Of a stretch of DNA of 64,000 nt, positions 36,332 through 60,530 are shown in pieces (the first letter of the stretch is position 1; every line of letters starts with the position of its first letter). The translations under genes were made by a program, and so were the position numbers. Where the stretch lies: positions 3,224,001 through 3,288,000 of the forward strand of contig NZ_CP139421.1 in NCBI RefSeq assembly GCF_034119865.1, written 5' to 3'. Source of the stretch: Algoriphagus sp. NG3 (GTDB lineage: Bacteria; Bacteroidota; Bacteroidia; Cytophagales; Cyclobacteriaceae). Below the pieces are notes generated by a model that was not told the origin of the DNA, did no database searches, and was given only the letters and a program-made list of their open reading frames with translations.

Positions 36332-36332
36332 T

Positions 36333-37265: not shown

Positions 37266-37275
37266 AATTCTCAAG

Positions 37276-37850: not shown

Positions 37851-37883
37851 TTTGTAAAAATGTATTTTAAATACATATATTTG
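37851..37883 (+). promoter_or_regulatory. EPS operon promoter with palindromic operator
   Basis: TTTG at 37851-37854 and a perfect TATATTTG at 37876-37883, spaced by 21 bp, match the Bacteroidota promoter. The spacer is almost filled by an inverted repeat (ATGTATTT-T-AAATACAT, 37860-37876), whose core equals the one before the PAS gene. A protein bound here would block polymerase. The leader to the ATG at 38084 would be nearly 200 bases. Confidence 0.6.
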
Positions 37884-38083
37884 CAATATAAATCAGAGTG
37901 TTGCTTTCTGAACGAATAGTTCTCGCAGATGTGCAATTAGTTCTTACGGAACAAAAAATTTCACATTCATGAGTATTTTGATTGTTGTATATAAATCCAT
38001 TAAGCGCAAAACCGTGTGACTGAAAGGGCGAAGCTATGGAATCAGGAAAAATTCAATCTCAAAAAAAATTCAGACCATATTTT

Positions 38084-38857: not shown

Positions 38858-38891
38858 CCCTTATACAGTTCAATAATCTAAAACAAGCAAA

Positions 38892-41273: not shown

Positions 41274-41306
41274 CTTTTACTATCGTAATCAAGCCAACTA
41301 ATATTT

Positions 41307-41786: not shown

Positions 41787-41849
41787 GCACTCCTATTGAT
41801 CTTTTGATTTTTGGGAAAAATCGCTGCATCCACCCCTAAATTGTCCTAT

Positions 41850-42329: not shown

Positions 42330-42341
42330 GAAATAAATTTT

Positions 42342-43124: not shown

Positions 43125-43141
43125 GTTAACTATTTAATAAC

Positions 43142-44272
43142 ATGTCAGACACAAATTCATTAGCAGTATTTTCAGGTAAGAAAATTTTAATAACAGGCCA
43201 CACCGGTTTCAAGGGCTCATGGCTATCTCTTTGGCTTAAACAGAAGGGGGCTAAATTATTCGGTATCTCAAAAGATATACCAACCCAGCCTTCCTTATTC
43301 GAGTCCCTTGGCCTCGAAAAGGAAATGGAGCATATTTTACTTGATATCAGAGATTTAACCTCTTTGAAATCTGAAATAAGAAGAATAGAACCTGATTTTA
43401 TTTTCCATATGGCCGCTCAGCCTATTGTTTCTTTATCGTATCAGGATCCCCTAGAGACGTTCACAACAAATGCCATAGGTACGGCCAATGTCCTGGAAGC
43501 TGTACGTGATCTTCAGAATAAATGTGTGGTCATATGTATTACTTCGGATAAATGTTACGAAAATGTGGAATGGGTCTGGGGATATAAGGAAACAGATATG
43601 CTAGGCGGAAAAGATATATACAGCGGGTCAAAAGCAGCTGCTGAAATTATCATCCATTCGTACTACCATTCTTTTATCAAGAAAATGCCAAATATTAAAT
43701 TGGCTTCTGTCAGAGCCGGCAACGTCATTGGAGGAGGGGATTGGGCTGCCGATAGGATTGTTCCGGATTGTATGCGATCCTGGAGTAAGCAGGAAAAAGT
43801 AGAAATCCGGAATCCAGGTGCCACCAGACCTTGGCAACATGTACTGGAGCCTTTAAGCGGATACCTCGCTGTTGCTGCCGAGCTTTGGGATGGTGGTGAG
43901 TTTAATGGGGAGAGCTATAATTTCGGCCCGCCTTCTGAAAATAATATTACCGTAATGGAACTACTCCAAAAACTTGGGGAAAGTTGGGGACTTAAAAATT
44001 CTCAGGACATCTACACGCAAACAGGAGAACTCAAATTTTCTGAAGCAGGTCTGCTCAAATTAAATTGTGACAAGGCGCTATATGATTTCAAATGGCAACC
44101 CACTCTTACTATAGATGAGCTGATCCGCTTTACCGGAGACTGGTATTATATGTATTACCATAACCAGGGAGATGTTATTGAGTTTACTAAAAATCAGATT
44201 TTTTCTTATGAGCAAAAAGCATCCGATAAGAAAATAAGATGGGCAAAACAAACACAATTTTCACTCCTTTAG
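43142..44272 (+). CDS. rfbG: CDP-glucose 4,6-dehydratase
   Basis: A 376-residue extended SDR that converts CDP-glucose to CDP-4-keto-6-deoxyglucose. NAD motif ITGHTGFKGSWLSLWL, family segments AAQPIVSLSYQDPLETF, ITSDKCYENVEWVWGYKE, the catalytic YSGSK and GAGNV-like RAGNVIGGGDWAADRIVPD, ARPWQHVLEPL-like TRPWQHVLEPLSGYL. Product feeds the cupin epimerase-like enzymes downstream. Confidence 0.95.
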   Translation: MSDTNSLAVFSGKKILITGHTGFKGSWLSLWLKQKGAKLFGISKDIPTQPSLFESLGLEKEMEHILLDIRDLTSLKSEIRRIEPDFIFHMAAQPIVSLSYQDPLETFTTNAIGTANVLEAVRDLQNKCVVICITSDKCYENVEWVWGYKETDMLGGKDIYSGSKAAAEIIIHSYYHSFIKKMPNIKLASVRAGNVIGGGDWAADRIVPDCMRSWSKQEKVEIRNPGATRPWQHVLEPLSGYLAVAAELWDGGEFNGESYNFGPPSENNITVMELLQKLGESWGLKNSQDIYTQTGELKFSEAGLLKLNCDKALYDFKWQPTLTIDELIRFTGDWYYMYYHNQGDVIEFTKNQIFSYEQKASDKKIRWAKQTQFSLL

Positions 44273-44282
44273 ACAAAGCATT

Positions 44283-44822
44283 ATGCTATTTAATGAGACT
44301 AGCATCAAAGACATGTATGTAATTGATCTGGAAAAGAAATATGATGAAAGAGGGTATTTTGCCAGAACTTTTTGCACCCACGAATTTGAGGCTCATAGCA
44401 TAAAGTTCTCCCCTATCCAGTCCAACATGTCCTTTAGCAAATTAAAAGGAACACTCAGAGGTTTGCATTACCAGGTACCAACAGAAGAAGCTAAATTAGT
44501 CAGATGCCCCCAAGGGAAAATTTTCGATGTTGTCATTGATATGAGAACTGAGTCAGAATCCTACTTGAAAATATCATGCAATGAACTAGCGAGCACAACA
44601 AGTCGGTTACTGTACGTTCCTCCCGGGTGTGCCCATGGTTTTCTAACGTTGGAAAACAATACTGAAGTCAATTATTTGGTCAATGCACTCTTCAATCCTG
44701 CACAGGAAAGAGGAATCCGGTACAATGATCCGGCTTTTACTATTCCATGGCCTATAGAGATAACCACAATTTCAGAAAAGGACAAATCACTTCCTGACTA
44801 TGACGCACAAAAGAGAATCTGA
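44283..44822 (+). CDS. RmlC-like sugar 3,5-epimerase family protein (copy 1)
   Basis: A 179-residue cupin of the dTDP-4-dehydrorhamnose 3,5-epimerase family. The catalytic His62 is in LRGLHYQVP, and the PGCAHGF core and ERGIRYNDPAF segment are present. The Tyr pair used in RmlC catalysis is changed: the aligned place reads Leu136-Phe137 (NALFNP). That makes a normal C3/C5 double epimerisation less certain; a C3-only or isomerase role is possible. Given rfbF and rfbG, the substrate is probably a CDP-4-keto-6-deoxyhexose. Confidence 0.85.
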   Translation: MLFNETSIKDMYVIDLEKKYDERGYFARTFCTHEFEAHSIKFSPIQSNMSFSKLKGTLRGLHYQVPTEEAKLVRCPQGKIFDVVIDMRTESESYLKISCNELASTTSRLLYVPPGCAHGFLTLENNTEVNYLVNALFNPAQERGIRYNDPAFTIPWPIEITTISEKDKSLPDYDAQKRI

Positions 44823-44831
44823 TAGATTGGT

Positions 44832-45386
44832 ATGAATTTAACACAAACTAAGATCCCAGGATGCTTTGAAATCCAGCATAAGGTGCGAAAAGACGACCGG
44901 GGTAAGTTGGTCAAAACCTTTCATGAAAAAACTTTCCAGGAATTGGGACTTCATAAAGACTTTCCTGAAGTTTATTATTCCGTCTCAAAAAAGAACGTGA
45001 TCAGGGGGTTGCACTTCCAAGTGCCGTCCCAGCATCATATCAAAGTCGTTCTTTGCTTGGAAGGGAGCATATTGGATGCCGTAGTAGATCTTCGGGTAGG
45101 TTCTCCGACATACGGGGAGCATATCATCGTTGAACTAAGCCCGGAAAAGGCCAACATGCTCTACGTCCCAGAGGGGTGTGCCCATGGATTTTATTCATTG
45201 TCGGAAAAATCAATCTTTTTAAATCAAACTTCCACCATGTACAGCGCAAAACACGATATGGGAATCAGATGGGACAGCTGCGGTATCGACTGGCCGACCA
45301 AAGACCCGATCGTTTCTAAAAAGGACAAAAACCTTATAGAATTCAGTTCATTTAACTCACCTTTTAGCTATCAGGAAACACTATGA
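44832..45386 (+). CDS. RmlC-like sugar 3,5-epimerase family protein (copy 2)
   Basis: A 184-residue cupin, distant from copy 1. His61 lies in IRGLHFQVPSQHH and His118 in PEGCAHGFYSL; the position equal to the RmlC tyrosine is Tyr137 (STMYSAKHD), so the acid residue is kept here though its neighbour is Met. The closing sequence MGIRWDSCGIDWP is usual. It probably epimerises a CDP-4-keto-6-deoxyhexose. Overlaps the SAF-domain dehydrogenase gene by four bases. Confidence 0.87.
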   Translation: MNLTQTKIPGCFEIQHKVRKDDRGKLVKTFHEKTFQELGLHKDFPEVYYSVSKKNVIRGLHFQVPSQHHIKVVLCLEGSILDAVVDLRVGSPTYGEHIIVELSPEKANMLYVPEGCAHGFYSLSEKSIFLNQTSTMYSAKHDMGIRWDSCGIDWPTKDPIVSKKDKNLIEFSSFNSPFSYQETL

Positions 45387-46693
45387 TAATCGTTGACACA
45401 TCACTCAAAAAGAGGGAAAAAGAAGGGAAAATTCTCAAAATCGGGATGATAGGTTCTGGTGAGATGGCCAAGGGTATGATAAACCAAATTATGCATTACA
45501 CCCCCGGCATGACTGTCTCAGCGACTTTTAATCGGACGCCAGAAAAGGTTGTAGAGGTGTATAAGGAATTAAAAATTGATAATTACCTTCTTAGCGACAA
45601 CTTAGAAGAAGCCAATCTTGCAATTTCCAAAGGAAAATCTGTAATCACCGGTGATATAGATCTTTTTTTAAGTTTGGGGGATGTAGAGGTTGTTGTGGAA
45701 TCCACAGGAGCAATTGCCTTTGGAGCAGACACCATTCTCAAAGCCTTTGAAAAGGGAAAGCACGTTTTATCTTTTAATGCCGAATTGGACTCTACGTTGG
45801 GTCCAATTTTATATAGCAAAGCAAAACAAGCTGGCGTGAAATACGCACTGGGGGATGGAGATCAGCCCGGGGTGACTATGAACCTCTACAGATATGTAAA
45901 GGGAATGGGATTTGAGCCCCTTGTCTGTGGAAATATCAAAGGGATGTTGGATTATTACCGTACTCCTGCCACCCAAAAAGCATTTGCGGATTCTTGGGGA
46001 ATGCTGCCTGAGATGGCAACGAATTTTGCAGATGGTACTAAAGTGGCATTTGAACAATCCTGTATCGCAAATGCAACGGGAATGCGGGTATCAAAAAGAG
46101 GTATGTTTGGATATGAATCTACTGACCATGTGGATAATCTGACCCATTTATACGACGTGGATCAATTGAGAGAAATGGGCGGAATAGTGGAATATATTGT
46201 AGGAGCAAAACCAGGGCCTGGAGTATTTGTCTATGCAGCTGCAAAAGATCCATATTCTGTCAAGTATCTGAAATATGGAAAATTGGGAGAAGGACCATTG
46301 TACAGTTTTTATCAACCGTATCACCTCCTGTTTTTCGATATTGCAAGTTCTATTTCAAGGTTAATTGATTTTGACGATCCTGTGATCGTGCCCTTAGGCC
46401 CATCGCTTGTAGATGTGGTAGCTACTGCCAAAACAGATCTTTTTCCGGGTGACAGTCTAGATGGAATCGGTGGATTCAAATCATACGGACTCTGTGAAAA
46501 CCATCCTGTTGTCCTTAAGGAAAATCTATTAACCATGGGATTGTCAGAAGGATGCAAAATAAAGAAAGCTGTTGCAAAGGATTCAGTCATTACATATGGT
46601 GATGTGGAAATACCTGAAGGGAGATTGATAGATAAATTGATGTTGGAACAGAACAATCTAAATACTTCTTATTCACAAATCCCAAATTCATGA
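45383..46693 (+). CDS. NAD(P)-dependent dehydrogenase with C-terminal SAF domain (COG4091-like)
   Basis: A 436-residue protein resembling predicted homoserine dehydrogenases with a SAF domain. The Rossmann motif is KIGMIGSGEMAKGMINQI; the middle resembles homoserine dehydrogenase (VVVESTGAIAFGADTILKAF, LGDGDQPGVTMNLYRYV); the last 60 residues (LKENLLTMGLSEGCKIKKAV ... EIPEGRLIDKL) are the SAF-like fold. No ACT or threonine-pathway genes are near. In this operon it stands where a 4-ketoreductase would be expected, so it may reduce the CDP-keto sugar or make a branched carbon unit; that is inference. Linked to both neighbours by ATGA overlaps. Confidence 0.75.
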   Translation: MIIVDTSLKKREKEGKILKIGMIGSGEMAKGMINQIMHYTPGMTVSATFNRTPEKVVEVYKELKIDNYLLSDNLEEANLAISKGKSVITGDIDLFLSLGDVEVVVESTGAIAFGADTILKAFEKGKHVLSFNAELDSTLGPILYSKAKQAGVKYALGDGDQPGVTMNLYRYVKGMGFEPLVCGNIKGMLDYYRTPATQKAFADSWGMLPEMATNFADGTKVAFEQSCIANATGMRVSKRGMFGYESTDHVDNLTHLYDVDQLREMGGIVEYIVGAKPGPGVFVYAAAKDPYSVKYLKYGKLGEGPLYSFYQPYHLLFFDIASSISRLIDFDDPVIVPLGPSLVDVVATAKTDLFPGDSLDGIGGFKSYGLCENHPVVLKENLLTMGLSEGCKIKKAVAKDSVITYGDVEIPEGRLIDKLMLEQNNLNTSYSQIPNS

Positions 46694-47643
46694 AATTCAC
46701 AATAGGATTGCCAATTATAAAAACTGAGTATTTACAAGCTACATTAGACGGAATACAAAATCAGACTTTTACTGATTATGAAGTTGTAATTAAAAACAAT
46801 GCCAGTACTCCTGAAAAAAAAGCTGAGATTAAAAAAGTGTGTTCCGAATGGATCGGAAAGGAAAATGTTAAGTATTTTGAAAGCAACGAACAGCTAAGCA
46901 TGACAGCAAATTTCAATTCAATATTGGAACATGCTAAAGGGGACTATTTCACTATTATGAGTGACGATGATATCATGGAACCGGAATATCTACAGGAATT
47001 TGCTCTGCTTAGTTCGAAGTATCCGGATGTAAAAGTATTTCATTGCAGAGTCAAAAGAATAGATGGCAATGGCTCTTTACTTGATTTTTCAGAGAATTGC
47101 CCTGAATGGGAGTCACAAATTGATTTTATCTATCAAAGGATGAAGAGTAAAAGAACGCTTTATCTATCGGATTTCTTAGTTGACACTCAAGCCTTAAAAG
47201 AAATAGGTGGCTTTCCAATAGAAAGCTTTGGCTGGGGATGTGATGAAATAACTTGGTGTCGATTGGCTTACAATGGTATAGGCTTTACTCCAAAAGTACT
47301 CTTGAAATACAGAAGGTTTCTCGGTAATTTTAGTATGTCAAAGGAAAATCTATTGAAACGCTTTAAAGATGTAGAGCTAATAGATGAAATAATAAATAAT
47401 ATAATCACGAACAATACAGCAAAAAAAGATTGTCTATATCCACAAAGCTATTTGCAGAACTTGAATGCACATAAAACCCAAAAGCAGAAAGACTTTGTTT
47501 TGGAACATTTCGCTAAATCCAGCAACTATATAGGAATTTTACTCTTTTTTGCACAAAATAAAAAAGAACTTACCTATAAAGGACTGTTTAAAGCGATAAT
47601 ATTAAAAACTTTCTTCAAAAATAAATTTTATAATGCAGTATAA
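46690..47643 (+). CDS. Glycosyltransferase family 2
   Basis: A 317-residue GT-A transferase: FTIGLPIIKTEYLQATLDGI, then YEVVIKNNAST, and the metal motif TIMSDDDIMEPEYL. A WGCDEITWCRLAYNG segment is the acceptor-side Glu/Asp. Starts within the stop of the SAF-domain gene, so it may transfer the CDP-derived sugar. From this gene onward the operon is more AT-rich. A gene-free 188 bp follows, AT-rich and without a recognised element. Confidence 0.88.
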   Translation: MKFTIGLPIIKTEYLQATLDGIQNQTFTDYEVVIKNNASTPEKKAEIKKVCSEWIGKENVKYFESNEQLSMTANFNSILEHAKGDYFTIMSDDDIMEPEYLQEFALLSSKYPDVKVFHCRVKRIDGNGSLLDFSENCPEWESQIDFIYQRMKSKRTLYLSDFLVDTQALKEIGGFPIESFGWGCDEITWCRLAYNGIGFTPKVLLKYRRFLGNFSMSKENLLKRFKDVELIDEIINNIITNNTAKKDCLYPQSYLQNLNAHKTQKQKDFVLEHFAKSSNYIGILLFFAQNKKELTYKGLFKAIILKTFFKNKFYNAV

Positions 47644-47831
47644 TTTGAAGATTCAATACTTTTAACACATCTATAAATAAACGATAGTATTTAAGATCAA
47701 TTTCCTACCGAAACTGTAAAAGTAAAATATAAATTTTCTTAAAATATCAAGTACTCTATATAAGAGATCAGATAATCGAACGAATAAAACTACTGTACTA
47801 ATTGTTCAAATAATAATATTTAAACTAAAAA

Positions 47832-49247
47832 GTGATTTTTAAAAAACTTACTCAAAATAAAGTAGTAAAAAACTTCTCTTATTTAACATTAGGCAGCATA
47901 GTATCTCAGTTACTTATGCTATTTACAATTATCAAGATAACAAACGTTCTTTCAACTGATGATTATGGAGTTTATTCATTTATTATAGCTCAAGGTATGC
48001 TGCTCATTACAATTAGTGAGCTTGGAAGTAAACCTATAATCATCAGAACAATTGCCAGGGAACCGACTCAGAGTAAAGATATTGTGATTAATGGATCAAA
48101 ACTAAGACTGATTACAATAATCGTAATAGTACTGATATATTTAATTTACAATCATTTCTTAGGGAGCCTGTCATTAGGTCAGCTTTGGCTATTAGGAACA
48201 TACACATTAGTAAATTCGATATTCTATTTGATTGAAGACATATTTTTAGGGCATCAGAAAATGTACTATCCTTCACTTATAAAATCAGGGATAAATTTAT
48301 TATATTTTCTGGTTGTCATGCTACTGCCAATTTCGTTATTTTCAATAGACAACCTTCTGCTATCCTATGTTTTTGTAAGCACCATTCAAACAATTTTATA
48401 CTATTATCTATTGAAAAAAGAAAAACTTCTAATAGGTAAAAGGAGCAACTTCATTTATTCCTCCAAAAACTTAATAATTAAGAGCTGGCCATATTTAGCG
48501 TTAATGCTTCTCTCGCTGCCTATGTTACATATGGCAAATAATTTACTAGATATAAATTCTTCTAAAGAAGAAGTTGGTTATTTCAATCTAGCTAAGAAAT
48601 TAATGGGGCCAGTTCAACTGATAATAACATTTTCTTTGACTGCTATTTTTCCTAACATTTCAGCAATGTTCATTAAAGATACGGAGAAATTTAAAATGCT
48701 AATTTCCAAAGGAATACACATTTTTATAGGTTTAACTGCCCTATTCTGCTTTTCTTTTACGCTTTTTTCTCACGATATAGTTTTACTTGTTTTCTCAGAC
48801 AAATATCTTCCGGCAATAAAAGTAGTTCAATTACAAGTATGGTTTTTATTTTTAAACGGTATAAATCATTTTATTGTAATCATATTTGGAGCTGCAAATC
48901 GTGAAAAACAAATTTACAAACTTGCCTTAGTCAATCTTATAATTTCAGCTCCATTTCTCTATTATGGAAGCTTATATGGAGCTTTAGGCATATCATATGG
49001 CTTTATTGCTTCATTTGCAATATTCGAGTTCTATATCTGGTACCAGTTTAAAAGGAAAATAAACCTATCGATATCACATGAAAAAATCACGTGGCTGATA
49101 AGTATATTCCTGTTTTCAATTTCGTATTTTATGAGTAACACTCCACTATATCAAAAAGCAATATTAGTTATTGTTTTTGGTGGATTATATTCCCGATTTT
49201 TATTTAAAAGTTTTAATTCATTAACAACATATAAGGTTGAAAAATAA
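47832..49247 (+). CDS. Oligosaccharide flippase Wzx-type
   Basis: A 471-residue membrane protein of the polysaccharide transport (MOP) superfamily with twelve or more hydrophobic helices; N-terminal KNFSYLTLGSIVSQLLMLF and STDDYGVYSFIIAQGMLL are typical. It flips lipid-linked repeat units across the inner membrane. The start is GTG at 47832; no earlier start is in frame. It overlaps the polymerase gene by eleven bases. Confidence 0.9.
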   Translation: MIFKKLTQNKVVKNFSYLTLGSIVSQLLMLFTIIKITNVLSTDDYGVYSFIIAQGMLLITISELGSKPIIIRTIAREPTQSKDIVINGSKLRLITIIVIVLIYLIYNHFLGSLSLGQLWLLGTYTLVNSIFYLIEDIFLGHQKMYYPSLIKSGINLLYFLVVMLLPISLFSIDNLLLSYVFVSTIQTILYYYLLKKEKLLIGKRSNFIYSSKNLIIKSWPYLALMLLSLPMLHMANNLLDINSSKEEVGYFNLAKKLMGPVQLIITFSLTAIFPNISAMFIKDTEKFKMLISKGIHIFIGLTALFCFSFTLFSHDIVLLVFSDKYLPAIKVVQLQVWFLFLNGINHFIVIIFGAANREKQIYKLALVNLIISAPFLYYGSLYGALGISYGFIASFAIFEFYIWYQFKRKINLSISHEKITWLISIFLFSISYFMSNTPLYQKAILVIVFGGLYSRFLFKSFNSLTTYKVEK

Positions 49248-50529
49248 GTATTTACTGTATGCTTTTCTGCTCACCCTTACAGCAGTAAGTTTAAATTACT
49301 ATTTTGCTACATTCCTACCCGATTTTTTTAAGACATTCCGAATAGGATTTCTGACAATTGTAGTAACAATTGGCTTAGGACTATCATTTAGACAAGGTAA
49401 GGGTTTTGTACTGCCAGTAAAACTCTTAATTTTAGCTATGGTATTGTCCATATTTGTCTCATACCTCACTTGGGGGCAGGAGATTCCGTTGGGTGTACTT
49501 ATCACAATCCCTTTTCTACTCTGGCCGACTTTCTTTATACTTTTGAAAATCAAGGTTCCAATCGAAACAATAGAAAAGGTAGTCCTCATCTTTGGGTTCG
49601 CCTATATAATCGGTTATCTATACCAATTCCTACACCCAACCAACGTACTATTTAACTTAGGCATGGTGGATGACGAATATAAGGAATCAAGGGGAATTAT
49701 TAGAATTATCTTTCCAGGTGTTGGTGTGTTATGGTTGATTACTGCTATGGCAACCACCAAACTTACAAGCAGCAGCAATTATAAACCACTTTGGATTGTA
49801 CTTATGATCCTAGGATTAGTACTTCCTATAATGCAAGCGACCAGATCATATATAGTTCCTACAGTTTTGATATACATATATCATTTTTCAAAATACGTGT
49901 CGTGGACAAAAAAAATCATTATAATCACTGTTTTACTAGTCGCAAGCATGTTCATAGGCAATCTTGAGATACCCGTCTTTGAGGGGCTTTTAGAACAGCA
50001 AGAGAAAACAGTAGATGATGGTAAGAAAGATATCCGATATATAGCTGCAACTTATTTTGCAACCGAATTCTCCCCTAGCCCAATTAACCAGATATTAGGG
50101 AATGGAATGGGCCATGAAAGGAGCAACTATGGACAATTTATAAAACACTTAGGCCAAAAAGGCTTATTCATTCCTGACATTGGGATAATTGGAATATATG
50201 CCTATTTTGGAGTGATCCCTATTATTGCATGGATTATGATTGGTTATAAAATTTATTCATACAGGATTCCTGACAAATACATGTATGTCAAATATTATTT
50301 CTTTTACATCTATTTTGGCGCATTAGTGGGAAGTACATTTTATCACGTACATTATCTAATCACCTCAATTTTCGCTTTATATATATTTCAAACCATTCTT
50401 GAGGATAAGAAAAGTAAAATTATAAATAAAATTAAATCACTAAACAAGAAAGATCGTCAAATTCTTAAAGAAATTCTAGCTTACAGATCAACTAAGACTC
50501 AAAAAAAGTCAGTACCTGAAGTGCCTTAA
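49237..50529 (+). CDS. O-antigen polymerase-like membrane protein (Wzy-type)
   Basis: A 430-residue multi-spanning protein (ten or more helices) starting at TTG 49237 inside the end of the flippase gene. A large periplasmic loop (EYKESRGIIRIIFPGVGVLW) and a second loop (NGMGHERSNYGQFIKHLGQK) lie at the places where Wzy/WaaL proteins have their arginine-rich active loops. Sequence is too variable for a firm subfamily, but position between Wzx and transferases supports Wzy. Confidence 0.78.
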   Translation: MKNKYLLYAFLLTLTAVSLNYYFATFLPDFFKTFRIGFLTIVVTIGLGLSFRQGKGFVLPVKLLILAMVLSIFVSYLTWGQEIPLGVLITIPFLLWPTFFILLKIKVPIETIEKVVLIFGFAYIIGYLYQFLHPTNVLFNLGMVDDEYKESRGIIRIIFPGVGVLWLITAMATTKLTSSSNYKPLWIVLMILGLVLPIMQATRSYIVPTVLIYIYHFSKYVSWTKKIIIITVLLVASMFIGNLEIPVFEGLLEQQEKTVDDGKKDIRYIAATYFATEFSPSPINQILGNGMGHERSNYGQFIKHLGQKGLFIPDIGIIGIYAYFGVIPIIAWIMIGYKIYSYRIPDKYMYVKYYFFYIYFGALVGSTFYHVHYLITSIFALYIFQTILEDKKSKIINKIKSLNKKDRQILKEILAYRSTKTQKKSVPEVP

Positions 50530-50612
50530 GAAAATGAAACTGAACTGATTATCTACTTAATTTAGGAATCAAGAAGTCAAATAATCAACCTTACAAATCG
50601 AATGCTTTTAAA

Positions 50613-51512
50613 ATGCTTATATCTTGCTGTGTAAATACATATAAACGACCAATTCTATTAAAAAAACTTTTACTAAGTTTAGAGAAACAAAAGCTTGAAA
50701 AAGATTGGAAACTTGAAATAATAATCGTTGATAATGATGAACTAGAACAAGGTAAATTAGTCGTTGAAGAATTCAGAAAATGTTCCAACCTAAATATTCA
50801 CTATTATACACAACCTATTAAAAATATAAGTGTAACCAGAAATAAGGGAGTGAAGTTTGCAAAAGGAGAAATCATAATGTTCATTGATGATGATGGATTT
50901 GCTGCTGAGGATTGGATTTTTGAAATGATGAAGTGTATGGAAAACTACGAAGCAGATGCGGTATTTGGAACGGTTTTGCCATATTATGAGGAGGGAGTAC
51001 CTGAATTATATATAAAAGGTAAATTTTTTGATAGACTCATTCAGAATACCGGAGAACCAGCCACTTATAAGCGAACGACTAACTGTTTAATAAAAAGTGT
51101 GGTTTTGAAACAAATAAATGGACCATTTGATCCAAAAGATGGTTTGACTGGCGGAGAAGATTCAAACCTCTTTGAAAAACTACGAGTTCTAGGTGCTAAA
51201 CTTGTGTTCTGTAAGGAAGGCATAGTGCATGATCACGTCCCGATAAATAGAGCGAACTTAAAATGGCTTATACAAAGGAAATTCAGAGAAGGTCTTGGAT
51301 TTACTGCAATAAAGCTAAAGCATGCTAACAGGACGTTTTTAACTGGGTTTTATTATTTCCTTAGAGCAATAATATTTTTATTTATAAGTTTTGTATTGTT
51401 TTTAGTCTGTTTCCCATTCAAAATTCAACGAACGAAATGGTTATTAAATTGTATTAGCAATATTGGACATTTATCCGCATTTGCAAAAATTGAATACAGA
51501 GAGTATGAATAA
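50613..51512 (+). CDS. Glycosyltransferase family 2
   Basis: A 299-residue GT-A enzyme. SCCVNTYKRPILLKKLLLSL, IIIVDNDELEQGKL and EIIMFIDDDGFAAEDW (DxD) are present, with LTGGEDSNLFEKL as the later acidic motif. A C-terminal hydrophobic helix (AIIFLFISFVLFLVCFPF) ties it to the membrane. It overlaps the next transferase gene by eight bases. Confidence 0.88.
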   Translation: MLISCCVNTYKRPILLKKLLLSLEKQKLEKDWKLEIIIVDNDELEQGKLVVEEFRKCSNLNIHYYTQPIKNISVTRNKGVKFAKGEIIMFIDDDGFAAEDWIFEMMKCMENYEADAVFGTVLPYYEEGVPELYIKGKFFDRLIQNTGEPATYKRTTNCLIKSVVLKQINGPFDPKDGLTGGEDSNLFEKLRVLGAKLVFCKEGIVHDHVPINRANLKWLIQRKFREGLGFTAIKLKHANRTFLTGFYYFLRAIIFLFISFVLFLVCFPFKIQRTKWLLNCISNIGHLSAFAKIEYREYE

Positions 51513-52662
51513 GAATAGAGACAAATCAATAGTGCACATAAGTTTTGACTTTCCAGATAGCATAAATAATAACAAAACAAAAGCTATTTCGAATTTAATA
51601 AATGCTCAAAAAGAATTTAAAAACATTGTGTTTTCGCTAAACAGAACAGCAAACCCATTTGCTGACTTTAATTACAAAAAAGAACATTATGGCTATTCTT
51701 TAAATATTTATGGACTCCCGTATGGAATAGGTTTAAGAATATGGATGTACTTTGCATTTAAAAAAATTCATAAACTAATTTCAAGAGAGAAGATAAACGT
51801 AGATCTTATCCATGGGCATAAACTATCTTTTGAAGGATTAATATCTAGAAATCTGTCTCAAGAATTATCAGTACCATATATCATATCCGTAAGAGGCTAT
51901 ACTGATTTTACAGCAATAAAATTTTCACCATTTAACAGAAAACTTTTTCTAAAAATATTACAAAAATCCAGTAAGGTAATTTACTTAACACCTTGGTCTA
52001 AAGATAAAGTTCAACAAATATTTAGTGAGAAAGTAAGTGGTAAAAAAAGCCTAATATTACCAAATATCATTATATTAAATGACATCACTATTAACACCCA
52101 AGAGAGGTTTCCAGATAAATTCGTGACTGTCTTTAATCTAGATTCGTATAAAGCAAAAAACATAAAAAGAACTATATTAGCCATGAATATTGTTCACAAG
52201 AAATATCCTCAATTAAAGCTCGATATTATAGGAGGGGGAAAGTCTGCCAAAAAAATACAATCATATATTGACACCTGTACATTCCCATCAAACTTTGCTT
52301 TATTGGGGCCTATGGAACATAAAAAAGTATTAACCCAATATTGCAAATATTTAGGCTTTTTATTACCTAGCTTTCCAGAAACTTTTGGCTTAGTCTTTAT
52401 TGAAGCGCTGTATTCAGGAATCCCCATTCTATACTCAAGAAAATCCGGAGTTGATGGATATTTCGATGATTACCAAATAGGTAAAAAGGTTAAATACGAT
52501 TCTGTTGAGGATATTGCAAGTGCAATTATTAAGATTTATACTGAAAATTCTACTTATCGAAAATCTATTCAAGAATTAAAGGAAAATAATGGATTTCAAA
52601 AATTTTCACAAAATCATATAACAACCGAATATTCATACCTATTACAGAAACTCCTAAATTAG
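51505..52662 (+). CDS. Glycosyltransferase family 4
   Basis: A 385-residue GT-B enzyme. The frame runs further upstream but the ATG at 51505 (MNKNRDKSIVHISFDFPD) is the natural start. The C-terminal donor site is complete: LDIIGGGKSAKKI, FALLGPMEHKKVL and the E-x7-E type motif PSFPETFGLVFIEALYSGIP. Probably a retaining transferase building the repeat unit. Confidence 0.9.
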   Translation: MNKNRDKSIVHISFDFPDSINNNKTKAISNLINAQKEFKNIVFSLNRTANPFADFNYKKEHYGYSLNIYGLPYGIGLRIWMYFAFKKIHKLISREKINVDLIHGHKLSFEGLISRNLSQELSVPYIISVRGYTDFTAIKFSPFNRKLFLKILQKSSKVIYLTPWSKDKVQQIFSEKVSGKKSLILPNIIILNDITINTQERFPDKFVTVFNLDSYKAKNIKRTILAMNIVHKKYPQLKLDIIGGGKSAKKIQSYIDTCTFPSNFALLGPMEHKKVLTQYCKYLGFLLPSFPETFGLVFIEALYSGIPILYSRKSGVDGYFDDYQIGKKVKYDSVEDIASAIIKIYTENSTYRKSIQELKENNGFQKFSQNHITTEYSYLLQKLLN

Positions 52663-52729
52663 GGATAGGTGATAGATAAAATGCAAGTTCTATTTTAAAA
52701 GTGGGAGATAATTCTTAAAATTATATTTA

Positions 52730-53515
52730 ATGAAAGATAAACTAAAAAAGATCCTATTATTTTATCAAATTTATAAAAAATTGACAAGACCATCATTGAA
52801 ATTAAATGAGAATGGGGGAGTTGTCATCACATTTGACGACAAGTCAATTTCTGACTGGAACTCAACTCATGAAGTATTATTGAAATATAATTGGAAGGCA
52901 ACATTTTGTGTTTCTGAAATTGATACTTTGAGTTCCGAAGAAATAGAAAAACTGAAAGATTTCCAGGAATATGGTCATGAAATTTCTGGTCATGGATATA
53001 ACCATGTAGATGCCGTAAAATATGTAAAAAAACATGGCATTGATTCCTATCTTGATTCAGAAGTACTTCCAATGATTGAATCAATGAAACAAAAATCCTT
53101 AACAGTTAAATCATTCGCTTATCCATATGGTAAGCACAGCAAAAAAATTGATGCTTCACTACTGAAATATTTCAACATAGTTCGAGCCACTAGTTATGGC
53201 AGGATCCCTCCTTCTTTGCACACATGTTATTTTAATTATTCGTCCATGGTGCAAGGGATTGGGATCGATAGCATCTATAAACACATGGACGAAAAATACT
53301 TAATGAAATTGCTATCCTATGCTAAGGAAAAGAAAAAAATATTAATATTATATGGTCACAGAACTTCAAAGGACAATTTAAATGGCTACAATGTGAATCC
53401 TTCAGTATTAGAGACTATTTCAAAATATATCATTGATCATAATATGAAATTTTATACTTTATCTGATTTACATAATCTGAGAGTCAATCACTTAAAGCAG
53501 CGGGAAAACGCTTGA
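52730..53515 (+). CDS. Polysaccharide deacetylase family protein (CE4-like)
   Basis: A 261-residue NodB-like domain. Metal residues are Asp37 (ITFDDKS), His88 and His92 (HGYNH); motif 3 is FAYPYGKHSKK and a late LILYGHR places the last His. No signal peptide is visible, only a basic N-terminus (MKDKLKKILLFYQIYKK). CE4 enzymes remove N- or O-acetyl groups from polysaccharides. It ends the EPS run, 67 bp after the GT4 gene. No clear terminator follows; it is convergent with the PL14-like gene. Confidence 0.85.
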   Translation: MKDKLKKILLFYQIYKKLTRPSLKLNENGGVVITFDDKSISDWNSTHEVLLKYNWKATFCVSEIDTLSSEEIEKLKDFQEYGHEISGHGYNHVDAVKYVKKHGIDSYLDSEVLPMIESMKQKSLTVKSFAYPYGKHSKKIDASLLKYFNIVRATSYGRIPPSLHTCYFNYSSMVQGIGIDSIYKHMDEKYLMKLLSYAKEKKKILILYGHRTSKDNLNGYNVNPSVLETISKYIIDHNMKFYTLSDLHNLRVNHLKQRENA

Positions 53516-53616: not shown

Positions 53617-54666
53617 TTATTGTTGGATTTGCAAAGGGTTATACAATTTATCAGAAATGATATGCAAATTTTGACCGTAAGGGACTGATGGGTTTCTTGC
53701 AAGATAGGATTCACTATATTTCCAAATATAAATATCATCTATAAACATGAACTGATCCTTTGCGGAGGCAAACCGAACATCTGCTCCACCCATAAAAGTA
53801 GAAATTGCTATTTCTTCTAGATGCTGAGGACTTCTTTCAGTCCTCAGCTCAATTTTATTCGAAGTGGCCACTAATTTACCGTCAAGCCATACCTGCATAA
53901 TACCATTTTCTTTCCCAACATCATTACATACAATCCTTAGAGTGACCTCATGCCAAATACCTGAAACTAATTGACCAAAAGATCCAATTCCCATATCATC
54001 TCCATATTTATACTTCATGTTATGATGATATACATAAAGGCATAGTTTACCATTTTCTAACCATAACATTCTCGTGCTTGCCCCTTTGTTTCCAATATTT
54101 GGCCCATCTCCCCCACTAGCAACAGTTTGAACCGGGCCTAACGAAAACCCCGGCAATTTGCCCACAAGTCCCCAATCAAATTCTTTTTGGAATTTGATAC
54201 GGTAAGTCATATAAATCTCTTCAATGTCACTTACGTATGGAGATATACGAACCCACTGATTTAATCCTCCTCCCCTTCCCCATGTCCCTTGAGGATAATA
54301 GTTTCCCAATACTTTCTTATCGTCCACGGACATGATCTTCGAAGTATTGGGTTGATACAATTCTCTATTTGACTTCCAGTCTTTTCTAAATTGACTATTG
54401 GTGTAATCACCGACTTGATGATCCTCAAAATCTATCATTTTGAATATTACAAAATCATCATGCATCCAATCTGGTTCTAGATCTGACCATTCACTAGTAT
54501 TACTTTCAGATACTGTTTTATGAGAACCACTGATCTGACTCATACTTCTATTAACTTTCACGAGGATAAAATTTGCTTGATTAATTTGGAAAATAAAAGA
54601 CACTAAAGTAACCAGCAAAACCAGAGTGGGATTTGATGTTAAAACAACTATATTAATAATTTTCAT
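53617..54666 (-). CDS. Exported PL14-like polysaccharide lyase domain protein
   Basis: A 349-residue protein with an N-terminal hydrophobic segment (TLVLLVTLVSFIFQI) acting as signal or anchor. Residues from about 75 to 325 form a jelly-roll-like lyase domain: YMTYRIKFQKEFDWG, GKLPGFSLGP, LCLYVYHHNMKYKYGDD, NGIMQVWLDGKLVA and TFMGGADVRFASAKDQF. Similar folds are in PL14 alginate/glucuronan lyases. The same domain occurs at the N-terminal part of the protein at the right edge, with the HHxM-KYGD and TFMGGAD motifs shared. It lies 207 bp after the GT2-GH fusion on the same strand. Confidence 0.68.
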   Translation of the reverse strand: MKIINIVVLTSNPTLVLLVTLVSFIFQINQANFILVKVNRSMSQISGSHKTVSESNTSEWSDLEPDWMHDDFVIFKMIDFEDHQVGDYTNSQFRKDWKSNRELYQPNTSKIMSVDDKKVLGNYYPQGTWGRGGGLNQWVRISPYVSDIEEIYMTYRIKFQKEFDWGLVGKLPGFSLGPVQTVASGGDGPNIGNKGASTRMLWLENGKLCLYVYHHNMKYKYGDDMGIGSFGQLVSGIWHEVTLRIVCNDVGKENGIMQVWLDGKLVATSNKIELRTERSPQHLEEIAISTFMGGADVRFASAKDQFMFIDDIYIWKYSESYLARNPSVPYGQNLHIISDKLYNPLQIQQ

Positions 54667-54873: not shown

Positions 54874-57800
54874 TCACTGGAAAATCAATGGACGGGAAGC
54901 TGTCACAACATTTCCCAACGTATCAGTAGCATAAACATACACACGGGAATTTGACTTCCCGGAAGGCATAATAATTTCCACAAACTTATTATCATCCATT
55001 GTACTTGATATAGCTGTACTTTTATTCCAGGAACCTTCATCAAATACCTCCCACTCATATTTAAGCTTACCCTCATATCCATTAACCGTGGCAGCAGAAA
55101 GCCAAATTTTTTCTCCAGATGCAAGTGGATACCAATGGCCAACTATTGCTATTTCAGGAAATTTTTCCTGATATGTAAGATTGTCTCCCAACCAAGCTCT
55201 CTGCAGGTAATAATAGGTGGGCTTTAATCTGCCTTTATAATCAGTAATTCCAAACCAGGTTGCGGTGCCTTCATATCTATCGCGCCAACTAAAGGCAAAC
55301 CCTCCCAAATTATACCCTTTATTAAACTCTATATAGTCCTTCCACTGGACATCATACCACTTCGCCTTGGATAAACTGGATAGCTCTATCAGAAGATTAT
55401 CATCCTTATAATCTCCAAATTCCTGGCTCCAATAGCCTTTAGGGCCAAATTCTGTGACAACATAAGGTCTTAAAGTATCAAATTTTGTGATTTCTTCTTT
55501 CAGCCCCTGAATGCTTTCTTTATAATAAGAATTGACTCCGATTACATCAAGCGAAGGAGCATAGGTCGCCATCTCGTGAAGTGTGCTTGCCATTTGATAA
55601 TATTCATGCTCTTCAGTAGAAAAAACCGGTCTGCTTGGATCTAATTGATGAATCTTTTGAGCCAGTCTTTCGAGAAAATTCAAATAAGCCCTCCGTGTAA
55701 GGGTCAAATAGGGTTTTTCAAAATTCTTTTTTAATAATCCCCACGTTTCATTCCCAATATTCCAGGCAACAATACTTTTTTCATTTTTATATTTGCGCAC
55801 ATAATTCAAGACTTTTTTCTCATAGGCTTTTACCGCATCCTCATCTCCATAATAATCAATAGCGGGATCAAACCAAAAACCATACATCACCTTTAAATCA
55901 TTTTCTTCTGCTATCTTCAGAATGTTTCGGTCATAAATACTGGGCTCATATCTGCGAATGGTATTGGCCCCCATTTCTTTGATTTGTTTAAAATCATGTT
56001 CCAGCTGCTTTCTTGAAAGGGGTAAAAAACCCTCTCTCCACTCATCCCCGGCACTGTAACAGATTCCCTTCATATAAAATTGCTTACCATCCACTTCCAA
56101 TGAAAAATTCCCAAAGCCCCCCCTAACCAATCTATTCTGGTGGTCTTTAGTCTCTTTTTGTGCTTGTTGAAAAATAGCTAAACGCGGAGTGTCAAAGTTG
56201 GAAAGTACATCCGAAATGGAAGAATACTCGTAAGTCCAATCCATTTCTTGGCTATTCTCTTTCTCAAAATGAGATGAATCAGGATTTTGATAATAAAGAA
56301 CCGCAGACAGTATTTCAGGATGTTTATCTTGTATCTCTTTCAGTACATTTTTATTCCAGCTTATTGCATCTCCACCATAGGAGGTTGAACCCAGTTCTGA
56401 AATCATGATAGGAAGATCGATTCCCAATTCTTGGATCCTTTTTTGTAAGGGTTGATATAATTCCTCAAAACTTTTCCAGCGTCCATCTGGCCCAACAGTA
56501 CCATAATTAAAGCAAGAAATTCCGATCCAGTCCACATACCTGCTTTCTGGATAGGCCTTGCCACTGGGGAAATAGGTTTCTATGGCAGAAGGTTCCCAAG
56601 GGTTCCAAACCCAGGTAACGTTTTGAACACCCAGAATTTCAAATCGATCATGGATATACCTCCAAGCAGCAACAAAATCTTCAGGCAAATTTCCTCCTGT
56701 TGTTGACCAAGGATGTTTTGGGTTATCCATTTCATGTGCAAAACGCAGGAAAACCGGAAATCCCAAGGATCGAATCGAAACAGCCATTTGATCAATATAA
56801 TCATCAAAATATCCCTCGCTAATATGGCGGAACACTCTTTTGTTTTGGCTTAAATCTGGATGATCTTTGTACTCATCAAACAAATTCGTCCTTGGCTCCC
56901 AGGTAATCATAGGGATTGCCCCATGCTCAATTATACTTTGCCAAAGAGCTGTGGGAAGAGGGTCTGAGCTCCATAGAAGTGATGAAGAAATGACGGACCA
57001 AGAATGATCAACTTCCTTTTCAGCTACGAAAATGCTCTCTAGACCAGATTCTTTACGTGTTGTAGGTAACTGAATCCCTGTATAAAATCCTCCAATATTT
57101 ATTTTGTTCAACGTTTTCTCCATTTCTCCTGAATTTGAATCCGATGGAAGCTGGATCAGAAAAAAAGAAGAAACGATTAAACATATAATAATTATAGGAG
57201 CCGTTATCTTACTGAAATGATGATATGAAATATCCAATTTTGCAATTGGTTTTTTTGCCCTCCCTTCTTTCCATAAATTTCTGAAGGCAAATACCCAACG
57301 GGATTGGCCAATGGCAAATGCAAGAAAAAAGATAATTCCATTGGATATAGCAAAGGCTGCCATCATAAAGCTATAAGGTTGCCAGTCTTGATTTAACCCA
57401 TATACAGCTGCGGCAATACTAAGTGCGGCAACTACCAGATTGGGAAGTCCCAACAGAAATTCATTTTTTGAAGTATGTTCCTTAGGAGTGGGAATATAAG
57501 GCACTTTGATGTTCAACAAAGTATAAATAAAACCAAGAATATAAATCCACCAGCTTCCAACCCTGAGAAGCCCCCCAAATACGTGAAGTCCCTGTTCATG
57601 GGAATCATGGAGCCACCTTTGAGCGTAAAGCCTAACCAAAAGATGACAAATCATAAATGGGACAAAATAATAATAGAAAATAAGAGGATCCAGCAACCAT
57701 GGATACTCCCCCGACAATAAAGAAATTATAGGAACAGTTATGTCAATTAAAGCAATTAGACCAAACAAATAATATACTGGCATCAAGCCATAATGGATTT

Positions 57801-58746
57801 TCTGCTTCCATGTAAATTTCCTAAAGAGTTTTGGAAAAAGGTTAAACCAAAGATCAAAAGTTCCCCGGCTCCACTTCAATTGCTGACTATAGTAGGCAGA
57901 AAGACTAGTTGGCACCAAACCTCTCGACAAAATTTTTGGCACATAAACTGATTTCCAGCCATTTGCGTGAAGTAGCATCGAAGTATGCATGTCCTCGGTT
58001 AATCCGGGGGCATGCCCCCCAATGGAATCCAACGCTTCTCTGCGAAAAGTACAATTTGCCCCTATTGCTTGTGCGGTTCCAAATTTCCCCATAGACTGCA
58101 TGAAGGGGCCATAAAAATTATAGGTTTGCTCGGCAGCTGCCCTGGCTACAAAAGTTTCCACCTGATTTTTGTAAGCTTGCACTACTTGTACATATCCGAC
58201 TTTTGGATCTTCAAAAAACGAAAGAACATGATCTAAAAAATCCGGAAATGGCGCATGGTCTGGATCAAGTATGACACAGATTTCCCCTTTTGCCTGAGTC
58301 AATGCATTGTTGATATTTCCAGCCTTTGCATTTTCATGTGTATCTCTGGTTACATGAATTACTCCCAAATTCTTGCAAAGTTGTCGCAAAATAGGATCAT
58401 TGCCTTCATCACAAAGGTAATTTTGATGAGGGTATTTTACGGCAACCATAGCCCTTAAGGTCTCTTCAATCATTTCATAGGGCTCCCCGGGACAAGCTGT
58501 TGTCAACATATCCACGCTTAGGTTAATTTTTGAAATTGCTTTAGTAGGTTCTGATGCTGGGATTCCAGCATAATGATACCACTCAAAAAGAATCTTTATG
58601 ATCTTAAACATCAATGCCGTTGTCAACAAAATATAAAGCGTCAGGTGACCAATCCCAACCTCCTTAATAAATCCATACAAAAACACCAAAAGTGACAAAA
58701 GTGCCACAACGATGATAAAACGTATAAAATTTCTTGATTTAAGCAT
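54874..58746 (-). CDS. Three-module protein: GT2 synthase + GH26-like + GH2/GH5-like glycosidase
   Basis: A 1290-residue membrane protein. Residues 1-60 hold two helices; 75-310 a BcsA-like GT2 with Asp113 (CDEGND), D161-P-D163, TED at 250-252 and the variant QQLKW (287-291, Lys for Arg). Five or six helices run to about 530, the last probably exporting what follows. Residues 545-850 resemble GH26: acid Glu672 (RFAHEMD), nucleophile Glu784 (ISELGST). Residues 870-1180 are a second TIM barrel with Glu1000 (IGNETWG) and Glu1099 (VTEFGPKG), then an Ig-like end. No PilZ domain was seen. It looks like a processive beta-glycan synthase carrying its own trimming enzymes; the polymer is unknown. Confidence 0.85.
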   Translation of the reverse strand: MLKSRNFIRFIIVVALLSLLVFLYGFIKEVGIGHLTLYILLTTALMFKIIKILFEWYHYAGIPASEPTKAISKINLSVDMLTTACPGEPYEMIEETLRAMVAVKYPHQNYLCDEGNDPILRQLCKNLGVIHVTRDTHENAKAGNINNALTQAKGEICVILDPDHAPFPDFLDHVLSFFEDPKVGYVQVVQAYKNQVETFVARAAAEQTYNFYGPFMQSMGKFGTAQAIGANCTFRREALDSIGGHAPGLTEDMHTSMLLHANGWKSVYVPKILSRGLVPTSLSAYYSQQLKWSRGTFDLWFNLFPKLFRKFTWKQKIHYGLMPVYYLFGLIALIDITVPIISLLSGEYPWLLDPLIFYYYFVPFMICHLLVRLYAQRWLHDSHEQGLHVFGGLLRVGSWWIYILGFIYTLLNIKVPYIPTPKEHTSKNEFLLGLPNLVVAALSIAAAVYGLNQDWQPYSFMMAAFAISNGIIFFLAFAIGQSRWVFAFRNLWKEGRAKKPIAKLDISYHHFSKITAPIIIICLIVSSFFLIQLPSDSNSGEMEKTLNKINIGGFYTGIQLPTTRKESGLESIFVAEKEVDHSWSVISSSLLWSSDPLPTALWQSIIEHGAIPMITWEPRTNLFDEYKDHPDLSQNKRVFRHISEGYFDDYIDQMAVSIRSLGFPVFLRFAHEMDNPKHPWSTTGGNLPEDFVAAWRYIHDRFEILGVQNVTWVWNPWEPSAIETYFPSGKAYPESRYVDWIGISCFNYGTVGPDGRWKSFEELYQPLQKRIQELGIDLPIMISELGSTSYGGDAISWNKNVLKEIQDKHPEILSAVLYYQNPDSSHFEKENSQEMDWTYEYSSISDVLSNFDTPRLAIFQQAQKETKDHQNRLVRGGFGNFSLEVDGKQFYMKGICYSAGDEWREGFLPLSRKQLEHDFKQIKEMGANTIRRYEPSIYDRNILKIAEENDLKVMYGFWFDPAIDYYGDEDAVKAYEKKVLNYVRKYKNEKSIVAWNIGNETWGLLKKNFEKPYLTLTRRAYLNFLERLAQKIHQLDPSRPVFSTEEHEYYQMASTLHEMATYAPSLDVIGVNSYYKESIQGLKEEITKFDTLRPYVVTEFGPKGYWSQEFGDYKDDNLLIELSSLSKAKWYDVQWKDYIEFNKGYNLGGFAFSWRDRYEGTATWFGITDYKGRLKPTYYYLQRAWLGDNLTYQEKFPEIAIVGHWYPLASGEKIWLSAATVNGYEGKLKYEWEVFDEGSWNKSTAISSTMDDNKFVEIIMPSGKSNSRVYVYATDTLGNVVTASRPLIFQ

Positions 58747-59164: not shown

Positions 59165-59209
59165 ATCTTTTTTATCATATTTGTACTTTACAAATATGAT
59201 AAAAAAGAT
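59165..59209. repeat. Perfect 21-bp inverted repeat with 3-base loop
   Basis: Arms at 59165-59185 and 59189-59209 are exact complements around CTT; the inner part is TATCATATTTGTA. It ends five bases before the ATG at 59214 and includes two other candidate starts, so it could hide the translation start as RNA or act as an operator as DNA. Confidence 0.8.
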
Positions 59210-59213
59210 CATT

Positions 59214-60530
59214 ATGCTAAAAAAATATAGTGCTATCATCCTTGCTATTTATATTTTTTCAGGATGTCAAAATAAATCCAATCCAGACATCAGCCGAATA
59301 GTTGAAATAAAATACGAGGACGGAAGGGCGCAGCTTATAAGACACGGAAAACCTTATCATATTATTGGAGGAGCTGGGCATGAACATATGGAGAAATTAG
59401 CTCTTTATGGCGGAAACTCCATCCGAACATGGAATACCCAAAAAGCATCTGAAATATTAGATGATGCCCATTCTTTTGGGCTTACGGTAACTTTGGGATT
59501 AGAGGTAGGAAATGAATGGTGGGGTGATGACTTTAGCTATTGGAGCTTCAACAAAGTCGATCAAAAGATAGAGGGATTACGGAAGACTGTTAAAGAATTC
59601 AAAGACCATCCTGCCCTATTAATGTGGGGTATAGGAAATGAAGTTCATCTTTTTGGGGGAAACAGGTGGATTGTGTACCATACCATCAATAAAATAGCGA
59701 AAATGATTCATGAGGAAGATCCCAATCATCCTGTCATGACCGCTATTCCCGTAGGTTTTAAATATGATAGATACACTTTTTCTCATTTACTGATGCCTGA
59801 TGTAGATATTTTAGGTTTTAATGCCTTTGACAGACTTCCCTATATTTACAGTTTAATTTATGAACGCACAGGTTGGAAAAAAGCTTATATTTTATCCGAG
59901 TGGGGCGCATCTGGCCCTTGGGAATCCAATACAACTGAGTGGGGCGAACCCCCTACAGAATGGGGGGCTCCGAAAGAACTAAGCAGCACACAAAAAGCCA
60001 AAATAGTGTCACATTATTGGGATATAATCAAAAATGACGATCATTTATATTTAGGAGGATATGCCTTTTATTGGGGGCACAAAATAGAAAGAACTCATAC
60101 CTGGTTTAGTTTATTTTCAGAGGAAGGGCTGGAAACAGAAACCGTAAATGTATTACAAAATCAATGGTCAGAAAATAAACCGAATAACTGGGCTCCTCAA
60201 ATTGATAGTTTACAACTTATTGCTCCAATGCGGCGTGACAATTTTTATTTAGTAGCAGATTCTGTGTATACTGCAAATATTTTTGCAAATGACCTGGATC
60301 AGGATTCTTTGACTTTCCGTTGGGAGTTAAGACCGGAAGATGCTCCTTTTTTTGGTAGTGATAAGTTTAAAAATAATATGCGCCACCTTTTGTTATCTGA
60401 AAATTACCCCTCAACACAATTTCGGACACCTACTGAAGAAGGTCCTTACAGGCTTTTTGCTTTTGTCTATGATGGAAAGGGACATGTGGCCCACAAAAAT
60501 ATTCCTTTTTATGTTATATTGAGTAAATGA
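59214..60530 (+). CDS. Lipoprotein glycosidase, GH2/GH5-like TIM barrel
   Basis: A 438-residue lipoprotein. MLKKYSAIILAIYIFSGC gives a lipobox Cys18, so the ATG at 59214 is chosen over TTG 59181 and ATG 59196, which lie inside the inverted repeat. The barrel has a conserved start (GNSIRTWNTQKASEILDDAH), acid/base Glu143 (GIGNEVH) and nucleophile Glu229 (LSEWGASG). The last 100 residues are Ig-like (YTANIFANDLDQDSLTFRWE). It resembles the third module of the fusion across the divergent promoter, so it probably acts on the same polymer at the outer membrane. Confidence 0.82.
   Translation: MLKKYSAIILAIYIFSGCQNKSNPDISRIVEIKYEDGRAQLIRHGKPYHIIGGAGHEHMEKLALYGGNSIRTWNTQKASEILDDAHSFGLTVTLGLEVGNEWWGDDFSYWSFNKVDQKIEGLRKTVKEFKDHPALLMWGIGNEVHLFGGNRWIVYHTINKIAKMIHEEDPNHPVMTAIPVGFKYDRYTFSHLLMPDVDILGFNAFDRLPYIYSLIYERTGWKKAYILSEWGASGPWESNTTEWGEPPTEWGAPKELSSTQKAKIVSHYWDIIKNDDHLYLGGYAFYWGHKIERTHTWFSLFSEEGLETETVNVLQNQWSENKPNNWAPQIDSLQLIAPMRRDNFYLVADSVYTANIFANDLDQDSLTFRWELRPEDAPFFGSDKFKNNMRHLLLSENYPSTQFRTPTEEGPYRLFAFVYDGKGHVAHKNIPFYVILSK

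Follow-up and report, generated by a model that had tools for sequence, protein, structure and literature searches.

The covalent link between a polysaccharide synthase and a hydrolase is already known. According to the parts of the sources used here, in the GH17-GT2 proteins of Pseudomonas a GH17 domain, periplasmic by models and with a measured transglucosylation, is linked to a cytosolic GT2 (PMC10237404), and in tunicates, where CesA is a GT2-GH6 protein, an independent GH6 gene mostly retains the catalytic residue that the fused domain has lost (PMC7464555). Here we describe a further variant, a fusion gene (54874..58746, minus strand, 1290 amino acids) encoding a GT2 synthase followed by a GH26 barrel and a GH158-like barrel. 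It is found in a stretch of 64,000 nucleotides of Algoriphagus sp. NG3 (NZ_CP139421.1, positions 3,224,001 to 3,288,000), hereafter the window, to which coordinates refer. We propose, with moderate confidence, that the product is a beta-glucan synthase of the membrane that carries its own periplasmic processing modules and works together with a separate GH158 lipoprotein. The interpretation given in a first-pass annotation of this DNA stood as regards the single polypeptide, the two barrels and their exterior placement, but its premise that known synthases use only separate hydrolases is contradicted by the Pseudomonas and tunicate precedents.

The fusion protein and its three modules

The fusion is a single intact open reading frame (ORF) of 1290 codons, starting with ATG and with no internal stop, in a genome that is a single contig, and Pfam or structure matches to all three modules fall within it, as had been claimed from the letters alone. 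A frameshift or an assembly join, named in the first-pass annotation as a possible refuter, is ruled out as its origin because the ORF is intact and 213 non-redundant proteins share its layout, a recurrence that had been suggested as a check. The homologue search gave 914 proteins at E 1e-3 or better; among the matches listed (120 of the 914) lengths were 1144–1376 amino acids and GT2 models matched, the GH26 or GH2_C model being missed in some. The set of 213 was drawn from 233 proteins of at least 1100 amino acids by removing the duplicate of the window protein and those at least 95% identical. Fusions shortened by contig ends were removed by the length filter, and locus proteins containing X were meant for exclusion.

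The cytosolic GT2 catalytic region (57817..58569, minus strand; residues 60–310) contains D79, D161xD163, E251D252 and QQLKW at 288–292, and the Pfam scan places the GT2 domain at 92–295 with several models. Its closest solved structure is BcsA (6.4e-36), and by its motifs D, DxD, TED and Q-x-x-R/K-W together with the transmembrane channel fold the module is processive and BcsA-like. All the residues named in the first-pass annotation, in the GT2 as well as in both barrels, are present, and D161, D163, E251, D252, Q289 and W292 were found in 213/213 fusion relatives (D79 in 212, with one gap). No PilZ domain was matched in the fusion by the Pfam scan at E 0.1. Prediction of the glycan linkage from channel residues, following the approach outlined in part of PMC6821405, was abandoned because the sequence alignment to BcsA stops at query residue 352.

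The AlphaFold model of the fusion (predicted local distance difference test 91, predicted template modelling score 0.84) has its first six transmembrane helices (57310..58734, minus strand) at residues 5–29, 35–60, 313–345, 354–378, 429–453 and 457–479, with the GT2 region sitting between helices 2 and 3 and the six-helix stretch superposing on BcsA. After the channel come an extra helix and then the two barrels. This seventh helix (57151..57225, minus strand; residues 508–532), preceded by a loop with seven K/R versus two D/E, would bring the barrels to the periplasm. Both barrels are thus predicted by the model to lie outside the inner membrane, which agrees with the earlier proposal that the last helix exports the hydrolases and speaks against the cytosolic location that had been listed as another possible refuter.

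The GH26 barrel (56197..57090, minus strand; residues 553–850) has E672 as acid/base and E784 as nucleophile by homology, both aligning with Glu residues of CtLic26A. The Pfam GH26 model (PF02156) matches residues 647–766 with 33.8 bits (cut-off 20.2), and the family and the fold are those of GH26, a retaining family of clan GH-A. The closest solved relative is endoglucanase H, the lichenase CtLic26A (2bvd, 2bv9; 7e-20), a clostridial degradative enzyme that to our knowledge is not fused to a synthase. A profile built from 19 GH26 modules matched CtLic26A with 2.1e-44, the next GH26 with 8.6e-12, and xylanases and mannanases from 5e-10.

The third module, a barrel with a C-terminal domain (54877..56136, minus strand; residues 871–1290; E1000 and E1099), had been labelled GH2/5, and Pfam does place a GH2-type barrel at residues 883–1101. 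After comparison with solved structures this identity was replaced by GH158-like. The two closest structures (8.5e-24 and 2.6e-22) are GH158 enzymes, the pair BuGH158 (6pal) and GH158(Pro) (9oro); titles of GH158 entries name soaks in laminaritetraose or a mixed-linkage oligosaccharide, and the next match, at 3.3e-10, is named GH2-like and titled GH157. The module also carries the GNE and TEFG glutamates of GH158, a retaining family of clan GH-A whose catalytic residues in BuGH158 are E137/E220, as given in the part of PMC7157763 used here. It therefore appears closest to GH158 (beta-1,3-glucanases), an assignment by nearest solved structures and not by a CAZy family model. As stated in the first-pass annotation, each fused barrel of the window protein keeps both of its catalytic glutamates.

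The GH158 partner gene and the distribution of the family

Divergently transcribed from the fusion lies a stand-alone GH158 gene absent from the earlier account, which we call the partner (59181..60530, plus strand, 449 amino acids), a predicted lipoprotein with the lipobox ..IFSGC. The listed start is TTG 59181, and an ATG at 59196 may be the true one. It matches 9oro over residues 41–444 (E 5.4e-64) and 6pal (3.2e-43), GH2 enzymes being matched weakly, and this strong, near-full-length similarity together with both catalytic glutamates (E154 and E240) places it in GH158. An inverted repeat with 20-bp A+T-rich arms (59165..59209) overlaps the listed TTG start; it was scored as terminator-like (minus strand), a regulatory site or a hairpin being possible. 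Promoter-like sites (6 versus 3.0 +/- 2.1 in shuffles) were not used.

The partner usually lies beside the synthase. Clustering of neighbouring ORFs of at least 100 amino acids, with flanks up to 10 kb, in the best 80 of 313 confirmed genome hits (L004–L083) found its family in 74 loci, to which L034 was added on inspection (75/80), and no third gene family above 11/80 loci, families other than the partner being unnamed. A second sample of 49 loci (L084–L132) comprised 14 of 15 non-own places that matched with E 1e-100 or better in genomes of the same family (G030:C1:757803 was left out) and 35 of 36 from further sampling, the 36th (G026) being already included as L090; it overlaps the first sample (e.g., L086/L008, L087/L010, and L127/L026). 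The partner was present in 41 of these 49, or in 41/43 without six distant loci of a split type described below, which with L106 and L127 make up the eight that lack it. All 10 full-length fusions from other same-family genomes have it. The distance to the fusion was −19 to 386 bp in 39 of the 41 and near 2300 in two, and in Chitinophaga, Pedobacter, and flavobacterial loci the partner lies upstream of the fusion on the same strand, often with an overlap of a few bases. Its first catalytic Glu was found in 75/76 sequences (one gap) and the second in 76/76; in a second set each was present in 41/42, the exception being a gap in a fragment from a broken locus (L128). The strict lipobox pattern was seen in 23/76 and a looser one in nine more, and many others start with a hydrophobic segment by eye.

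There was no support for the idea that the partner was recently duplicated to yield the third module of the fusion. A tree of 75 sampled sequences puts the live third modules, the diverged ones, and the partners into distinct clades (supports 0.83, 1.0, and 1.0, respectively). In Chitinophaga japonensis the partner-plus-fusion pair is present twice in tandem (L058:4827-15071), and at the broken locus (G101:C1:8145000-8156500) both genes are in broken frames, either inactivated or affected by sequencing error.

Among the best 80 of the 313 hits, names were of Bacteroidota (Cyclobacteriaceae, Pontibacter, Chitinophaga, Pedobacter, Flavobacteriaceae, Prolixibacteraceae, and metagenome-assembled genomes). 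The spread is patchy, the full-length form being present in 11/98 genomes of the same family and a related form at E 1e-100 or better in at least 15/392 Bacteroidota genomes (both counts with the own genome included), the latter a lower bound because only two candidates per genome were scored in the phylum search. Shorter relatives have the GT2 alone or the GT2 plus a GH26 remnant. Many of the remnant type, at 690–999 amino acids, are Hymenobacter by name, and the 17 sampled loci of this type (L098–L104 and L110–L119) all have the partner, which also adjoins barrel-less GT2 genes at L105 and L107 and not at L106.

In the six distant loci (L096, L097, and L122–L125) a shorter GT2 gene adjoins a separate GH26 gene of 378–397 amino acids, whose product has, by eye, one anchor-like hydrophobic segment after basic residues. 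The simplest history, we infer, is one in which the anchor of such a GH26 gene became the seventh helix of the fusion. At two of these split loci (L096:2338-4017 and L122:5157-6698) a protein of 513–559 amino acids with an apparent signal peptide precedes the GT2 gene. A gene of about 570 amino acids with GH26-like sequence also occurs in or near some loci, 9/80 by clustering (L036, L037, L055, L057, L066, L070, L071, L073, and L078), and at L094:2192-3925 and L120:1386-3083, with two GH26-like regions in each of these last two.

Proposed function and alternative readings

In the reading that we favour, the GT2 would polymerise a glucan that contains beta-1,3 linkages, of the beta-1,3- or mixed beta-1,3;1,4- type, and push the chain through its own channel. 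On the way out, both tethered barrels and the GH158 partner would cut the chain, transfer it or add branches, so that the resulting glucan would have a defined length or architecture. We read the polymer as a beta-glucan because the solved enzymes most similar to the barrels act on glucans containing beta-1,3 bonds, and we propose processing because the barrels are predicted on the exit side of the channel. The synthase and partner are taken as one system since the GH158 gene stays with the synthase despite changes in orientation and module number. As GH26 and GH158 are both retaining families of clan GH-A, transglycosylation would be mechanistically available, and the processing may be hydrolysis, transfer, branching or cyclisation. 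The GT2 and the separate GH158 seem to form the constant core, with the tethered barrels apparently accessory and able to decay to domains that lack a catalytic pair.

Several points weigh against this proposal. In the GT2 the R of the QxxRW motif is replaced by K (QQLKW; K in 213/213), and the module scores far below the NCBIfam cellulose synthase model TIGR03030 (165.4 bits; curated cut-off 699.1). GH26 also includes mannanases and xylanases, and a GH158 enzyme could serve turnover and not synthesis. The partner is missing from five of the 80 loci (L035, on a 3.5-kb contig, and L025, L026, L031, and L054, in the sequence at hand) and from 2/43 sampled loci of the same subfamily, L106 and L127. 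The catalytic pair is lost in the GH26 of 50/213 fusions and in the third module of 53/213, and 55/68 proteins of 690–999 amino acids have only a GH26 remnant below 80 bits, a few of them being partial records. Lastly, lyase-like genes around the pair would fit a uronic polymer: one at 53617-54666 (minus strand, PL14 by Pfam), another at 60763-64572, running past the window end (minus strand, PL14 by Pfam, with LamG domains and a type IX secretion tail), and a third outside the window at 65381-69820 (minus strand), which resembles the other two by its opening residues only, by eye.

The window also contains an exopolysaccharide cluster (34205-53515, mostly plus strand) whose end faces the synthase gene. 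It has by Pfam an initiating sugar transferase, Poly_export, a Wzz/kinase protein, sugar-nucleotide genes and a deacetylase, and by eye only glycosyltransferase-like and flippase-like genes; its 46–54 kb part has a G+C of 0.31–0.33.

The alternative that survives best, which we nevertheless consider unlikely, is that the fused barrels serve chiefly as non-catalytic guides, or as structural BcsB stand-ins, binding the emerging chain and steering it, with the separate GH158 alone cutting it. Scoring as intact a pair with Glu at both aligned columns (decayed regions may be misaligned), both pairs are intact in 112 of the 213 fusions, 51 keep only the GH26 pair, 48 keep only that of the third module, and two (P0123 and P0135) keep neither. 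The 101 proteins that retain a barrel lacking a catalytic residue would suit guides, as would the many shorter proteins that retain a GH26 remnant without a third module, with the partner at all 17 sampled loci of that type, and the almost invariant active site of the partner. A parallel is the tunicate CesA, described in part of PMC7464555 as retaining a GH6 domain without the catalytic aspartate. Against guides stand the 112 fusions, window protein included, that keep all four glutamates, and a double loss rarer than independence predicts (2 cases where about 12 would be expected; Fisher p 2.5e-5, with no correction for descent). On a single FastTree tree of the GT2, with irreversible-loss parsimony, 21 GH26 losses and five third-module losses are inferred, and none of the 21 maps to a lineage whose third module is broken (such lineages make up 26% of branch length; p 0.002, or p = 0.05 if only 10 GH26 losses occurred), though a lineage whose GH26 is broken holds two of the five third-module losses. 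One clade accounts for 44/53 third-module losses, and because its third module is so diverged (GH2 and GH158 matched weakly, best E 1.5e-6) this "loss" may be a different domain.

The avoidance of double loss is thus suggestive only, and a strict rule that one tethered barrel is always live was weakened by P0123, P0135, and the shorter relatives with only a GH26 remnant. Trimming by the fused barrels is not a family-wide necessity, since many relatives have lost catalytic residues or keep only that remnant.

We regard as improbable that the protein is a beta-1,4 synthase making cellulose, with the glycosidases as BcsZ-like editors that clear misassembled chains. The low score against TIGR03030, the missing PilZ match in Pfam, and the relationship of the barrels to a lichenase and GH158 enzymes all argue otherwise, as does the lack of any family besides the partner in more than 11/80 loci (families unnamed; BcsB and BcsC not searched by name). 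Very improbable is that partner and barrels degrade external beta-glucan with the GT2 incidental, for although the Bacteroides uniformis GH158 sits in a beta-1,3-glucan utilisation locus (part of PMC7157763) and PL14-like genes flank the pair in the window genome, six GT2 motif residues are invariant in 213/213 while the barrels decay, the partner also adjoins GT2 genes without a barrel (L105 and L107, not L106), and no third gene family exceeds 11/80 loci.

Within the favoured beta-glucan synthase reading, we tentatively suggest as a possibility that Bacteroidota have their own periplasmic beta-glucan system, with a product possibly cyclic or branched, made of a GT2, a near-obligate GH158 and up to two tethered cut-and-rejoin barrels, a counterpart of OpgGH/NdvB from unrelated hydrolases. 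The fusion would have begun as a membrane-anchored GH26 gene beside a GT2, and catalysis would then have shifted between barrels, nearly all three-module fusions keeping at least one live site. As no third gene family occurs in more than 11/80 loci, there is no sign of a gene dedicated to export, consistent with a product that stays in the periplasm.

Comparison with known systems

Synthase-hydrolase pairs are common, yet the role of the hydrolase in synthesis is rarely settled. Around one conserved synthase and a nearly invariant GH158 we have a natural series of separate genes, one barrel, two barrels and several states of decay, so that one can ask directly if what counts is cutting the emerging chain or simply binding it. 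Our searches of the open-licence PMC literature gave no description of the GT2-GH26-GH158-like order, of the GH158 partner or of the graded barrel decay. Should the product prove to be a periplasmic or cyclic beta-glucan, it would belong to an envelope glucan class for which the result lists of searches in the same literature gave no Bacteroidota description.

The OpgG family is GH186, and we know of no fused barrels in OpgG-OpgH. Like our pair, this E. coli system couples a glucan synthase gene to a partner gene of glycoside hydrolase fold, the two forming one operon there, but it makes beta-1,2-glucan with an OpgG-family partner, as described in part of PMC10514313, and our partner is not of that family, matching GH158 and, weakly, GH2 enzymes. 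BgsA (PMC5567048) and RiGT2 (PMC10374906) are BcsA-like GT2s that make, or are involved in making, beta-1,3;1,4-glucan; the parts of these sources used here describe no fused hydrolase, and RiGT2 has a PilZ domain. BuGH158, with GH158(Pro) the closest solved relative of both our third module and our partner, is presented in part of PMC7157763 as an enzyme of a glucan utilisation locus and not as part of a synthase.

The tunicate CesA likewise joins a synthase to a hydrolase-fold domain and is accompanied by a stand-alone gene from that hydrolase family. Its fused domain is a GH6 whose catalytic aspartate is not conserved according to the part of PMC7464555 used here, whereas the window fusion has GH26 and GH158-like barrels with the glutamates kept. 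It is a precedent for a decayed fused hydrolase domain, as seen in part of the fusion family.

The closest working precedent is the Pseudomonas GH17-GT2 proteins ("Orphan"/NdvB). These also have a BcsA-like GT2 covalently tied to a glucan-active barrel proposed to be periplasmic, in their case to cut and cyclise beta-1,3-glucan, and lack the cyclic di-GMP RxxxR motif (part of PMC10237404), just as the fusion has no PilZ match. The fusion does not belong to the Orphan family, having no N-terminal GH17 and barrels that match GH26 and GH158. The Pseudomonas proteins carry one GH17 barrel before the GT2 (PMC10237404), while the fusion carries an extra helix, a GH26 and a GH158-like barrel after it, with a separate GH158 gene alongside and in a Bacteroidota host.

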